A stretch of 64,000 bases of DNA, taken from Bacillota bacterium (GTDB lineage Bacteria > Bacillota > Dethiobacteria > Dethiobacterales > Dethiobacteraceae). Made by a program: the position numbers and the translations under genes. Location: the NCBI GenBank assembly GCA_012521345.1, contig JAAYMN010000060.1:1-64000 (forward strand). Direction: 5' to 3'. Under the pieces are notes generated by a model. It was not told the origin of the DNA, did not search any database, and worked only from the letters and a program-made list of their open reading frames with translations. Shown here piece after piece: positions 16,688 through 23,637 of this stretch. Each line of letters begins with the position of its first letter. Position 1 is the stretch's first letter.

Positions 16688-16716
16688 TTGTCAAGCCGGC
16701 CTGTGTATGCTATACT
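16688..16716 (+). promoter_or_regulatory. Promoter of the ribozyme-nagB transcript
   Basis: TTGTCA at 16688-16693 and TATACT at 16711-16716 with an exact 17-bp spacer. Transcription would begin near 16723, giving a leader of about 120 nt before the ribozyme cleavage site and about 300 nt before nagB. Confidence 0.72.
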
Positions 16717-16840
16717 ACTAAAGTCATTGCAGGGAGGTGAAAAAGCGGGAAGAAAAGCCGGCAATACTGCCAGAATCCCAAAGGAGGTGAAAAAACGGCA
16801 GGAACAGATAAAGCAGTGCAGCATGGGATAATAATTTACA

Positions 16841-16974
16841 AGCGCCGGAACACGTTGCAGACGTGTTGACGAGGTGGAGGTTAATCGAAATATTCGGCGG
16901 GTGCCTCCCGGTTGGCCACGACCGTTAACGAACTTACAAAACCGGGGAGCGATCCCCGGGACAAAAGGTTCAGG
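16841..16974 (+). ncRNA. glmS-type self-cleaving ribozyme / glucosamine-6-phosphate riboswitch
   Basis: The stretch matches the glmS ribozyme core segment by segment. It opens with A then GCGCC, so cleavage is predicted between 16841 and 16842. P1 is AACACGT (16849-16855) with ACGTGTT (16861-16867). Then come GACGAGG, ATCGA, and TTCGGCGGGTGCC followed by TCCCGGTT, which form P2 and the P2.1/P2.2 core. After ACCGTTAA and ACAAAACC, P4 is CCGGGGA (16942-16948) with TCCCCGG (16953-16959), capped by a GCGA tetraloop. In this class GlcN6P acts as the catalytic cofactor and cleavage destabilises the mRNA. The gene downstream is nagB, not glmS. A further hairpin (TTTTGCC/GGCAAAA, 16978-16996) separates it from the ribosome site. 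Confidence 0.93.
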
Positions 16975-17023
16975 TGGTTTTGCCAGTCAGGCAAAAGATT
17001 AAAGGGGAAAACGGAGGAAAACA

Positions 17024-17749
17024 ATGGAGATATATGTGGTGGACAGTTATGAAGCATTAAGCACCAGAGCAGCCCTTATTGTGGCAGGCCAGATCTGTGC
17101 AAAGGCCGATACTGTTCTGGGCCTGGCTACTGGCAGTACACCCTTGGGCATGTACAGAGAATTGACGGAAATGCATAAAAAACAAAAACTGGACTTTAGC
17201 CGCGTCATTTCCTTCAACCTGGATGAGTACCTGGGACTGGCTCCGGACAATGTGCAGAGCTACCATTATTTCATGTGGGAAAATCTTTTTCAGCATATAA
17301 ACATCCGCCCGGAGAATACACACATTCCCGACGGCCTGGCTGCCGATACGGACGCCGCCTGCCTACAGTATGAACAAGCCCTGCAGCGTGCGGGCGGGGT
17401 TGACCTGCAGATTCTGGGGATTGGCAGAAACGGCCATATCGGTTTTAACGAACCGTCATCCCGCTTTACCGGTCCCACCCACGTGGTACGGTTAAGTGAA
17501 GATACGATCAAAGCCAATGCCAGGTTTTTTGCTTCTGTGGAGGAAGTCCCCACACATGCCATTACCATGGGGATTAAAACAATTATGCAGGCGAAAAAAA
17601 TTCTGCTTTTGGCCAATGGCAAGGAAAAAGCACAGGCTATCAAAGCAGCCGCCTGCGGTGATATTGACCCGGCCGTACCCGCTTCCATTCTCCAGTTGCA
17701 TCCTGACTGTATCTTTCTGCTTGACAGGGAAGCGGCACAATACCTGTGA
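17024..17749 (+). CDS. nagB: Glucosamine-6-phosphate deaminase / isomerase
   Basis: Interconverts glucosamine-6-phosphate and fructose-6-phosphate plus ammonia in the cytosol. The 241-residue protein has the short Bacillus-type length. Motifs: phosphate loop LATGSTPLGMY (about 35-45), catalytic FNLDEYLGL (about 65-73), GIGRNGHIGFNEP (about 129-141) and TMGIKTI. The start ATG follows CGGAGGAAAAC. Its 5' leader contains a glmS ribozyme, so high GlcN6P should cut the mRNA. A catabolic deaminase would normally be induced, not silenced, by GlcN6P, so the control logic fits a biosynthetic (aminating) role better. No nagA or sugar transporter lies beside it. Identity is firm; direction is inference. 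Confidence 0.95.
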   Translation: MEIYVVDSYEALSTRAALIVAGQICAKADTVLGLATGSTPLGMYRELTEMHKKQKLDFSRVISFNLDEYLGLAPDNVQSYHYFMWENLFQHINIRPENTHIPDGLAADTDAACLQYEQALQRAGGVDLQILGIGRNGHIGFNEPSSRFTGPTHVVRLSEDTIKANARFFASVEEVPTHAITMGIKTIMQAKKILLLANGKEKAQAIKAAACGDIDPAVPASILQLHPDCIFLLDREAAQYL

Positions 17750-17769
17750 ATCTGACAAAGAAGCGGTGC

Positions 17770-17803
17770 CCGCAACCGGAGCGGTTGCGGCCCGCATTTT
17801 TTA
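17770..17803 (+). terminator. Intrinsic terminator of nagB
   Basis: CCGCAACC (17770-17777) pairs with GGTTGCGG (17783-17790), followed by CCCGCA and a T6 tract. Confidence 0.82.
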
Positions 17804-17932: not shown

Positions 17933-19285
17933 ATGAAAACCATTGCCCATGCCGGCATTTACCCGCACCCTGCCATCGTTATTCCTGCCGTGGGCGGGGC
18001 GGAGCAGGCAAAGGTTGCCGCCACTTACGCCGCCATGCAGGAGCTGGCAAGGCGCGTCAGGGCAAGCAGCGCGGATGTTTTGGTCCTGATAAGTCCTCAC
18101 GGGCCAATGTTTCGTGATGCCATTGCCGTCCTGGCAGGCGATATGCATACCGGCTCCCTGGCCCAGTTTGGCGTACCGTCCCTTACCTTTACTTACCGGA
18201 ATGACAAGGAGCTGCTTGCGGCCATTGAACTGGCAGCCGACCGGGAAGGCATCAGGATGGTGGGAATTGACCAGCGCAGTGCGTCTGCATACGGTGTTGC
18301 CGCAGCGCTGGATCATGGAGCCACTGTCCCCCTTTATTTCCTGCAGGAAGCAGGTGTACACCTGCCCCTGGTGCATATAACTTTCGGGCTGCTGTCTCCC
18401 GACAGGCTGTATGCTTTCGGCCGGGCTGTCCGCAAGGCTCTTATGCGCCAAAAACGCCAAGCGGCGCTTGTGATCAGTGCCGACCTGTCCCACCGCCTGA
18501 AACCGGATGGACCGTATGGCTACAGTGCGGCAGGACCTGAATTTGACAGTCTGCTGGTGAGCCTGCTTAAACAGTACAATATCCAGGGCATTTTAAGGAT
18601 AAGCAAAGAATTAAGGGAAGAAGCGGCAGAATGCGGCTACCGTTCCATCCTTATCGGTCTGGGGGTGCTGGACGGTGAACAGGTTAGGCCGGAAGTGCTT
18701 TCCTATGAAGGTCCCTTTGGCGTGGGGTACTTGGTGGCCGACCTGACGCCGGATTCCGCCCGCAAAGCCATGCACACTGCCACAAGTGAACATGTGGCGC
18801 TGGCCAAAAAAGCGCTGGAAAGTTATGTTTTGCAGCGGAAAGTAATTGACCCGCCTCCCGGGTCCCAGCTTGGCACCCAGCGGGCGGGGGCGTTCGTATC
18901 CCTGAAAATTAACGGCCGGCTGCGCGGCTGTATCGGCACCATCGAGCCGGTCCGCTCTTCCCTGGCGGAGGAGATTATTGCCAACGCCATCTCGGCCGGC
19001 ATGCATGACCCGCGCTTTCCTCCGGTAACGCCGGATGAACTGCCGCTATTGTCCTATTCCGTGGATGTGCTCACGCCGGCGGAAGAGGTGGCCGGGCTGG
19101 AAGATCTGGATCCCAAAAAGTACGGTGTGATTGTGGCTTTTGGCAGCCGCCGCGGCGTGCTTTTGCCGGACCAGGAAGGAGTGGAGACGGCGGAAGAGCA
19201 GGTCAGGATTGCCCTGGAAAAAGCGGGCATCCGGCCGGAGGAAAAATACCGGCTTTACCGTTTTCAGGTTGAACGCTACCATTGA
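17933..19285 (+). CDS. Fused AmmeMemoRadiSam system protein (Memo-like plus AMMECR1 domains)
   Basis: A 450-residue fusion. Residues 1-265 form a Memo-like domain of the class III extradiol dioxygenase (LigB) superfamily, with metal-ligand-type His in SPHGPMF and in SADLSHR. Residues about 280-450 form an AMMECR1 domain with the conserved LRGCIGTI segment and the DPRFPPVTPDEL region. These two families plus the radical SAM protein encoded next constitute the widespread AmmeMemoRadiSam set, whose chemistry is not established. The start is ATG 17933 behind CAGGGAGG; the longer open frame upstream has no support. The radical SAM gene follows after 15 bases. Confidence 0.9.
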   Translation: MKTIAHAGIYPHPAIVIPAVGGAEQAKVAATYAAMQELARRVRASSADVLVLISPHGPMFRDAIAVLAGDMHTGSLAQFGVPSLTFTYRNDKELLAAIELAADREGIRMVGIDQRSASAYGVAAALDHGATVPLYFLQEAGVHLPLVHITFGLLSPDRLYAFGRAVRKALMRQKRQAALVISADLSHRLKPDGPYGYSAAGPEFDSLLVSLLKQYNIQGILRISKELREEAAECGYRSILIGLGVLDGEQVRPEVLSYEGPFGVGYLVADLTPDSARKAMHTATSEHVALAKKALESYVLQRKVIDPPPGSQLGTQRAGAFVSLKINGRLRGCIGTIEPVRSSLAEEIIANAISAGMHDPRFPPVTPDELPLLSYSVDVLTPAEEVAGLEDLDPKKYGVIVAFGSRRGVLLPDQEGVETAEEQVRIALEKAGIRPEEKYRLYRFQVERYH

Positions 19286-22290: not shown

Positions 22291-23637
22291 ATGGGAAAGT
22301 TATTCGGAACAGATGGCATCAGGGGCGTAGCCAACAGGGAATTGACGCCGGAGCTGGCTTTTAAGATAGGCCGCATCGGCGCTTTTGTCTTACAGAAGGA
22401 AAACAAGGGCAAAAAAGCTTTCCTGGTAGCGCGCGACACCAGGAAATCAGGCACCATGCTGGAGTCTGCCCTGGTGGCCGGCCTGGCTTCCGCCGGCGCC
22501 GACGTTTATCTGGCAGGGGTGATATCAACGCCGGCCACTGCATTCCTGACAAAGCAGTTGGCCGGGTGCGGCGGAGTGGTCATTTCCGCTTCCCATAACC
22601 CTTATTACGACAATGGCATTAAATTTTTCAGCTCCGACGGTTTCAAGCTGCCCGATGCAGTAGAAGACGAAATGGAGGAGCTGTTTTTCCAAAATGATGA
22701 CAATCTGCCCCGGCCGGACGGAGCGGACATCGGCTCTGTCCTGCCCGACCCGGAGGCTGCGGACCGGTATCTTGCCCACCTGCTTTCCACGGTGCCCTGC
22801 CGCCTGGACGGCTATCGCATTATCCTGGACTGTGCCAACGGGGCTGTTTACAGGCTGGCTCCGCAGGCTTTCCGCGCCCTGGGGGCGGAAGTAATTGTCT
22901 TCAACGACCGCCCGGACGGTATTAACATTAATGACGGCTGCGGTTCCACCCACCCTGAAGCCATTGTGAGCTATGTGAAGCGGGAGGGTGCCGATTTCGG
23001 CTTTACATTTGACGGAGACGCGGATCGCGTCCTGGCCGTGGACGCGGACGGGGAACTGGTGGACGGCGACGCCATCATGATGATCCTGGCCAGGCACCTT
23101 ATGGCGCGCGACGCCTTGCCGCACCGGACAGTTGTCGCCACCGTCATGAGCAACCTGGGTTTGGAAAAAGCGGCGGAAAAATACGGCTTCCGCCTGTTGC
23201 GGACCAAGGTGGGGGACCGCTACGTGCTGGAAGAGATGCTGGCAGGCGGTTATACCTTGGGCGGCGAACAGTCGGGCCATATCATTCTCCTGGATTATAA
23301 TACAACCGGCGACGGTCTGCTGACTGCCCTGCAGCTGGCTGCCATTGCCGTTGCCGGCGGCAAAAGCCTGAAAGAACTGGCGGCCGACTATACCCGCTAC
23401 CCGCAAGTGCTGGTAAACTGCAGGGTGAAAAAGCGTGAAGGCTGGGACAGCAACCCCCGCATCCGGGCTGCCATTGCAGAGACGGAAGATGTCCTGCACG
23501 GCAGCGGCCGCCTGCTAATCCGCCCGTCCGGCACCGAGCCGCTTATCCGGGTGATGCTGGAAGGGCGAGATGAAGAAAAACTGCGTGCCATGGCAGAGAA
23601 GCTGGCGGATATTATCACGGCCGAACTGAACCGGTGA
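22291..23637 (+). CDS. glmM: Phosphoglucosamine mutase
   Basis: Converts glucosamine-6-phosphate to glucosamine-1-phosphate for UDP-GlcNAc and peptidoglycan synthesis. It has 448 residues with all four mutase domains: N-terminal LFGTDGIRG, the phosphoserine loop ISASHNPYYDNGIKFF (about 99-114), the magnesium loop DGDADR (about 240-245), the sugar-binding GEQSGH, and the C-terminal phosphate loop RPSGTEPLIRVM. The ATG follows GGGAGGAAAA. In many Firmicutes the next gene is glmS; here the following 310 bases hold only an interrupted frame and a terminator. Confidence 0.96.
   Translation: MGKLFGTDGIRGVANRELTPELAFKIGRIGAFVLQKENKGKKAFLVARDTRKSGTMLESALVAGLASAGADVYLAGVISTPATAFLTKQLAGCGGVVISASHNPYYDNGIKFFSSDGFKLPDAVEDEMEELFFQNDDNLPRPDGADIGSVLPDPEAADRYLAHLLSTVPCRLDGYRIILDCANGAVYRLAPQAFRALGAEVIVFNDRPDGININDGCGSTHPEAIVSYVKREGADFGFTFDGDADRVLAVDADGELVDGDAIMMILARHLMARDALPHRTVVATVMSNLGLEKAAEKYGFRLLRTKVGDRYVLEEMLAGGYTLGGEQSGHIILLDYNTTGDGLLTALQLAAIAVAGGKSLKELAADYTRYPQVLVNCRVKKREGWDSNPRIRAAIAETEDVLHGSGRLLIRPSGTEPLIRVMLEGRDEEKLRAMAEKLADIITAELNR

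Follow-up and report, generated by a model that had tools for sequence, protein, structure and literature searches.

Why should a glmS ribozyme stand in front of nagB? The glmS ribozymes have been described as controlling glmS, and in Bacillus subtilis the ribozyme is the feedback switch of the cdaA-cdaR-glmM-glmS operon, in which GlmM is the next enzyme after glucosamine-6-phosphate (GlcN6P). The direction of NagB, the glucosamine-6-phosphate deaminase/isomerase, has in turn long been treated as catabolic in cells, the enzyme favoring deamination unless ammonia is high. GlcN6P stimulates ribozymes of this class to cleave themselves, and in B. subtilis it reduces the level of the mRNA downstream (PMC6171935). 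The stretch of DNA analyzed here (the window, 64,000 nucleotides) was the subject of an earlier note, which placed a glmS ribozyme before nagB and offered two explanations: either this NagB works in the aminating direction, or the ribozyme tunes a reversible catabolic step so that GlcN6P is spared.

The ribozyme and the gene behind it

A cmscan search of the whole window at the gathering threshold returned a single Rfam match, RF00234 (glmS), which reached 109.7 bits where the gathering score is 37 (E = 8.1e-25), covered the full model (1-167) and had no non-standard pairs flagged in its alignment. This copy is also the sole RF00234 match in the 2.06 Mb window genome. The covariance model thus bears out the earlier note's identification of the RNA, and the cleavage site, the GNRA-capped stem and the upstream promoter with 17-nt spacing that it had described were all recovered (Table 1). 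Cleavage between A-1 and G1 has been described for the B. subtilis glmS ribozyme (PMC11602151). Judged from its sequence, the window RNA is a typical RF00234 ribozyme, and its GlcN6P-dependent self-cleavage is inferred. What is not met is the customary context of RF00234, the 5′ leader of glmS, since the gene that starts after a gap of 42 nt is nagB; that location is a matter of custom and lies outside the definition of the RNA class.

Table 1. Features of the ribozyme-nagB locus and the downstream glmM, in window coordinates
Feature	Position	Strand	Basis or remark
Sigma-70-type promoter, TTGTCA-17 nt-TATACT, TG before the -10	16688..16716	+	Same in two congeneric genomes (alignment)
glmS self-cleaving ribozyme	16830..16981	+	Full RF00234 model
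Predicted self-cleavage site, A/GCGCC, between A16841 and G16842	16841..16842	+	Sequence and RF00234 alignment
First variable ribozyme hairpin	16849..16867 (16849-16856 with 16860-16867)	+	5/8 pairs vary on both sides, 14 ribozymes
GNRA-capped ribozyme stem, GCGA loop 16949-16952	16942..16959	+	5/7 pairs vary on both sides
Ribosome-binding site, GGAGG	17012..17016	+	Sequence; conserved in G001
nagB, glucosamine-6-phosphate deaminase/isomerase, 241 aa (ATG 17024, TGA 17749)	17024..17749	+	TIGR00502
Intrinsic terminator, GC-rich hairpin then T6	about 17757-17803	+	Fold -26 kcal/mol, z = -3.4
glmM	22291..23637	+	TIGR01455, 581.9 bits; 4.5 kb downstream of nagB, no glmS behind

Every sequence test applied identifies the protein encoded behind the ribozyme as a NagB. 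It scores 310.6 bits on the equivalog model TIGR00502 (cut-off 236.9), and its best match among solved structures is the B. subtilis NagB (2bkv/2bkx), which has the same length, aligns over nearly its full extent and carries D67, N136, H138 and E143 at the same numbers. These active-site residues are invariant in the family, and the N/D136 criterion is met. The window NagB differs from that of B. subtilis in lacking a nagA or PTS enzyme I partner, in having a ribozyme of its own, in its glmM neighborhood and in its inferred synthetic direction. More generally, the catabolic context customary for NagB (nagA, the GlcNAc PTS) is missing in the window's family, although such context is again custom and does not define the protein family. 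Four positions, none of them catalytic, set the ribozyme-linked NagBs of the core clade apart, so the direction of the enzyme is not revealed by sequence alone.

Promoter and ribozyme are conserved in an alignment with both congeneric genomes. Because a strong hairpin followed by T6 lies 3′ of nagB, the gene looks monocistronic, in agreement with the earlier note's description of nagB as the only gene downstream. A GGAGGTGAAAAA-like motif occurs twice (16732-16748 and 16780-16799) in the leader between promoter and ribozyme and is mostly conserved across the three genomes. Beyond the terminator, at 17933-19285, a single open reading frame joins the AmmeMemoRadiSam proteins A and B, and the radical SAM partner follows it.

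Gene order and glmS in the window's family

The window's family (f1) comprises 20 genomes in our sample, and the ribozyme is present in 19 of them, the window's included. The common order is cwlD-amrAB-amrS-cdaA-ybbR-glmM-ribozyme-glmS, with glmM-ribozyme-glmS present in ten genomes; in four (G008, G009, G012, G017) nagB lies exactly in the glmS slot, giving glmM-ribozyme-nagB. The window's genus has the order cwlD-ribozyme-nagB-amrAB-amrS-cdaA-ybbR-glmM, which reads as a move of the ribozyme-nagB unit by a few kilobases upstream within the same neighborhood. G001, of this genus, repeats the ribozyme-nagB junction with a nagB that is 93% identical, and the contig of G002 stops just behind its ribozyme, leaving nagB outside the assembled sequence. 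A misassembled junction, which the earlier note had named as a possible refutation, is excluded by the identical junction in G001 and further assemblies. The system therefore shares with the ribozyme-glmS switch of the Bacillota the ribozyme class, the full consensus and, in the relatives, the cdaA-ybbR-glmM-ribozyme-slot neighborhood, and it differs in the regulated gene, in an inferred nitrogen donor that is free ammonia and not glutamine, and, in the window's genus, in the location of the unit between cwlD and amrAB.

Other arrangements occur in the family. G010 and G016 have ribozyme-glmM-hexapeptide acyltransferase-nagB, and in G011 a single cluster contains two ribozymes, one ahead of glmM and the other ahead of glmS, with nagB lying farther downstream (L080:5941-12144). 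Tandem arrangements are listed as lacking for glmS ribozymes (PMC9481103); the two in G011 are separated by glmM. The protein that accompanies nagB and glmM in these clusters is a 272-aa hexapeptide-repeat acyltransferase-like protein (L080:9679-11400, L076:1322-2140), possibly an acetyltransferase of the UDP-GlcNAc pathway, and L080 additionally encodes a 299-aa protein without a Pfam match near nagB and glmM. The sole f1 genome without RF00234, G005, has a 448-nt gap before glmM (L087:3431-3879) in which neither an Rfam match nor a degenerate ribozyme was found; it is also the only tested f1 genome with PTS enzyme I.

The occurrence of nagB in f1 is confined to genomes with ribozyme-led nagB plus G011. 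No full-length glmS (TIGR01135) was found in six genomes (G001, G009, G010, G012, G016, G017), whereas one is present in 11 of the 11 other f1 genomes that lack a ribozyme-led nagB (Fisher p = 0.002 for glmS absence against ribozyme-led nagB, uncorrected for relatedness). These absence calls are based on draft assemblies of MAGs that are 87-97% complete, and the joint chance that all six result from incompleteness is about 8e-8. It could be argued that the junction or the absence of glmS is an artefact of assembly or binning, the f1 genomes being drafts of tens to hundreds of contigs. We consider this practically untenable in view of that chance, of the recurrence of the junction across three families and 11 genomes, and of the tetranucleotide make-up that C78, the contig with the window genome's own glmS, shares with the window.

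The earlier note had left the presence of glmS elsewhere in the genome to a search, which finds none under ribozyme control but does find a full-length copy directly behind purA (G000:C78:146-1951; L002:143-1954), with neither a ribozyme nor a ribozyme remnant upstream. It belongs to a purA-glmS clade (100/100 support) whose only members in the sample are from the window genome, G002, G008 and G194, the last being a fragment cut by a contig end. A long branch divides this clade from the remaining GlmS proteins of the tree, among them the ribozyme-controlled one of the family, to which the purA-linked GlmS is about 50% identical, and all four of its carriers belong to ribozyme-nagB lineages. 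The simplest history, which is an inference, is that the inherited glmS was lost and a foreign copy acquired afterwards. Contamination as the source of the C78 gene was considered and rejected on the tetranucleotide evidence, and it is also opposed by the presence of the gene in G002 and G008 at the expected divergence. Given these purA-linked copies, the window genome, G002 and G008 have a potential source of GlcN6P besides NagB, whose exclusive role there is thus not demonstrated.

Independent origins of the pairing

Our wider sample consists of 399 genomes of the phylum, with the ribozyme in 266 and a nagB match in 192. Pairs were found by comparison of coordinates and re-inspection of 30 loci, and their number is a minimum because the ribozyme coordinates were incomplete. 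The order glmM-ribozyme-nagB recurs in genus g152 of family f84 (G194, G404) and in genus g128 of family f26 (G159, G193, G317), and no full-length glmS was found in G404, G159, G193 or G317. At least 11 genomes thus have a direct ribozyme-nagB pair (these five together with G000, G001, G008, G009, G012 and G017), and full-length glmS is missing from eight of the 11.

In a maximum-likelihood tree of 104 NagBs, the ribozyme-linked proteins fall into separate and supported groups, namely the six of f1, those of G010, G016 and G011, the two of f84, the three of f26 and, at a distance, that of G099, where the ribozyme gives only a weak match of 43.6 bits. The supported branches require at least six label changes. 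Since the NagBs of f1, f84 and f26 belong to different clades, the swap appears to have arisen at least three times, and on the simplest reading of the tree the direct pairs alone would require at least three recruitments of nagB behind the ribozyme. Among 80 NagB loci of named genomes, up to 59% identical, an nhmmer search with the family ribozyme profile found no ribozyme nearby, with the reservation that near relatives of the window may be left out. Two genomes of the same class without a full glmS, G026 and G028, have glmM-nagB pairs without a ribozyme (L237:3708-6677, L238:5131-7226), which is the same replacement without the RNA.

A sister genus of g152 within f84, g207 (G362, G271), has altered GlmS itself. 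Its ribozyme lies upstream of a 383-aa GlmS that starts in the linker and has no glutaminase domain (L234:3538-4689, L235:998-2149), and the use of ammonia by this protein is inferred. With either the nagB swap or the glutaminase-less GlmS, glutamine is no longer the evident nitrogen donor, and the ribozyme is kept.

In principle, the ribozyme could be a passive leftover, an RNA that is no longer regulatory at a site where glmS was lost and nagB happened to land, and the exact coincidence of nagB with the former glmS position in most loci is what this explanation would lead one to expect. We compared 14 ribozymes, 11 of them directly upstream of nagB, together with the contig-end copy of G002 and two that head a glmM-acyltransferase-nagB operon. 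The AGCGCC, GTTGACGAGG and TCGGCGG columns are invariant in all 14, 94% of the structure cells are paired, and 18 of 36 pairs have changed on both sides (the core pseudoknot was not assessed separately); none of 500 shuffles reached the observed level and slid controls were far lower. The invariant core and covarying stems make the ribozymes look as though they are under selection in the nagB context. Together with the joint relocation of ribozyme and nagB in the window's genus and the at least three separate origins, they leave a functionless remnant very improbable.

Direction of NagB and the source of nitrogen

Our preferred reading, to which we assign a probability of roughly 0.8, is that the ribozyme was kept as a product-feedback switch after NagB displaced GlmS, and that NagB aminates fructose-6-phosphate. 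The sequences directly show the ribozyme and where it lies, relatives in which nagB has replaced glmS, genomes that have lost glmS, and a lack of nagA; the cleavage, the mRNA decay and the direction of the enzyme in the cell are inferred. NagB, predicted here to act as an ammonia-dependent GlcN6P synthase, would convert fructose-6-phosphate and NH4+ to GlcN6P and water, and GlmM would draw off the product and feed peptidoglycan. When abundant, GlcN6P would serve as the ribozyme cofactor and the leader would be cut between A16841 and G16842, the cut nagB mRNA would be expected to be degraded, and GlcN6P synthesis would fall. The nitrogen donor for GlcN6P would have changed from glutamine to free ammonia with the feedback retained.

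The reaction catalyzed by NagB is reversible and most characterized NagBs deaminate in cells, according to a study of Akkermansia muciniphila (PMC5902328). It is therefore conceivable that the NagB described here, which is assigned to the NagB family and retains the deaminase active site, is simply a catabolic deaminase, and that the ribozyme spares GlcN6P or serves to switch expression on, with cleavage yielding a stabler mRNA so that deamination is induced at high GlcN6P. An ON switch is at odds with the reduced expression that follows cleavage in B. subtilis (PMC6171935). NagA was not found in any f1 or f84 genome, and the f1 genomes with nagB yielded only PEP-synthase-like partial matches to PTS enzyme I; a GlcNAc-catabolic NagB is accordingly unlikely in the latter, and salvage of GlcNAc or PTS-glucosamine is not supported as their source of GlcN6P. 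nagB lies together with glmM and not with GlcNAc uptake genes, and glmS is missing from most ribozyme-nagB genomes, where a cell that destroyed GlcN6P and had no synthase for it would not survive. We therefore regard a catabolic role as unlikely, with the qualification that the f26 genomes carry nagA and the role is less excluded there. Of the two explanations in the earlier note, comparative genomics lends support to the aminating direction (nagB in the glmS slot, glmS loss, NagA absence and repeated origins), and the sparing of GlcN6P in a catabolic step is the weaker one, no GlcNAc-catabolic partner gene having been found in f1.

The Akkermansia precedent is relevant in another respect, because there, as in the glmS-less relatives of the window, NagB occurs in a cell without GlmS. 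According to that study, the Km values of its NagB are 41 mM for NH4+ and 5.5 mM for Fru6P, the GlcN6P output is insufficient at physiological substrate levels, and GlcNAc is needed (PMC5902328). The failure of this enzyme to supply GlcN6P indicates that its kinetics and the availability of ammonia decide which way a NagB runs. The glmS-less genomes might likewise belong to auxotrophs for GlcNAc or GlcN in which NagB has no synthetic part, and non-PTS glucosamine uptake with a kinase was outside the scope of our gene searches. Salvage of GlcNAc to GlcN6P, however, requires NagA, which is absent in f1 and f84, and an auxotroph would have no reason to retain product feedback on nagB or to pair nagB repeatedly with glmM, so we give auxotrophy scarcely any credence. 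The f1 genomes differ from Akkermansia in having no nagA, and the accessible part of the Akkermansia paper reports no ribozyme control (PMC5902328).

Returning to the biosynthetic NagB, all of the support for it comes from draft-genome sequence, without biochemical data. A broader claim, that the glmS-ribozyme regulon has switched from glutamine to ammonia repeatedly, at least three times through unrelated NagBs and once through deletion of the glutaminase domain of GlmS, and that peptidoglycan synthesis in the glmS-less species relies on NagB alone for GlcN6P, seems to us probable, with considerable room for doubt. The departure from known systems is the ribozyme-nagB pairing and its inferred meaning. 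We found no open paper on a glmS ribozyme upstream of nagB, in a search that did not cover the 2011 and 2012 surveys of McCown. The abstract of the 2011 survey reportedly states that all but two ribozymes lie in glmS mRNAs, and since this main survey was outside our literature search, priority is not established.

Automated annotation should not take the presence of a glmS ribozyme to mean that glmS follows, and the pairing is also relevant to antibacterial work that targets the glmS ribozyme. The product-feedback logic together with the repeated pairing with nagB constitutes genomic evidence for NagB making GlcN6P from free ammonia.
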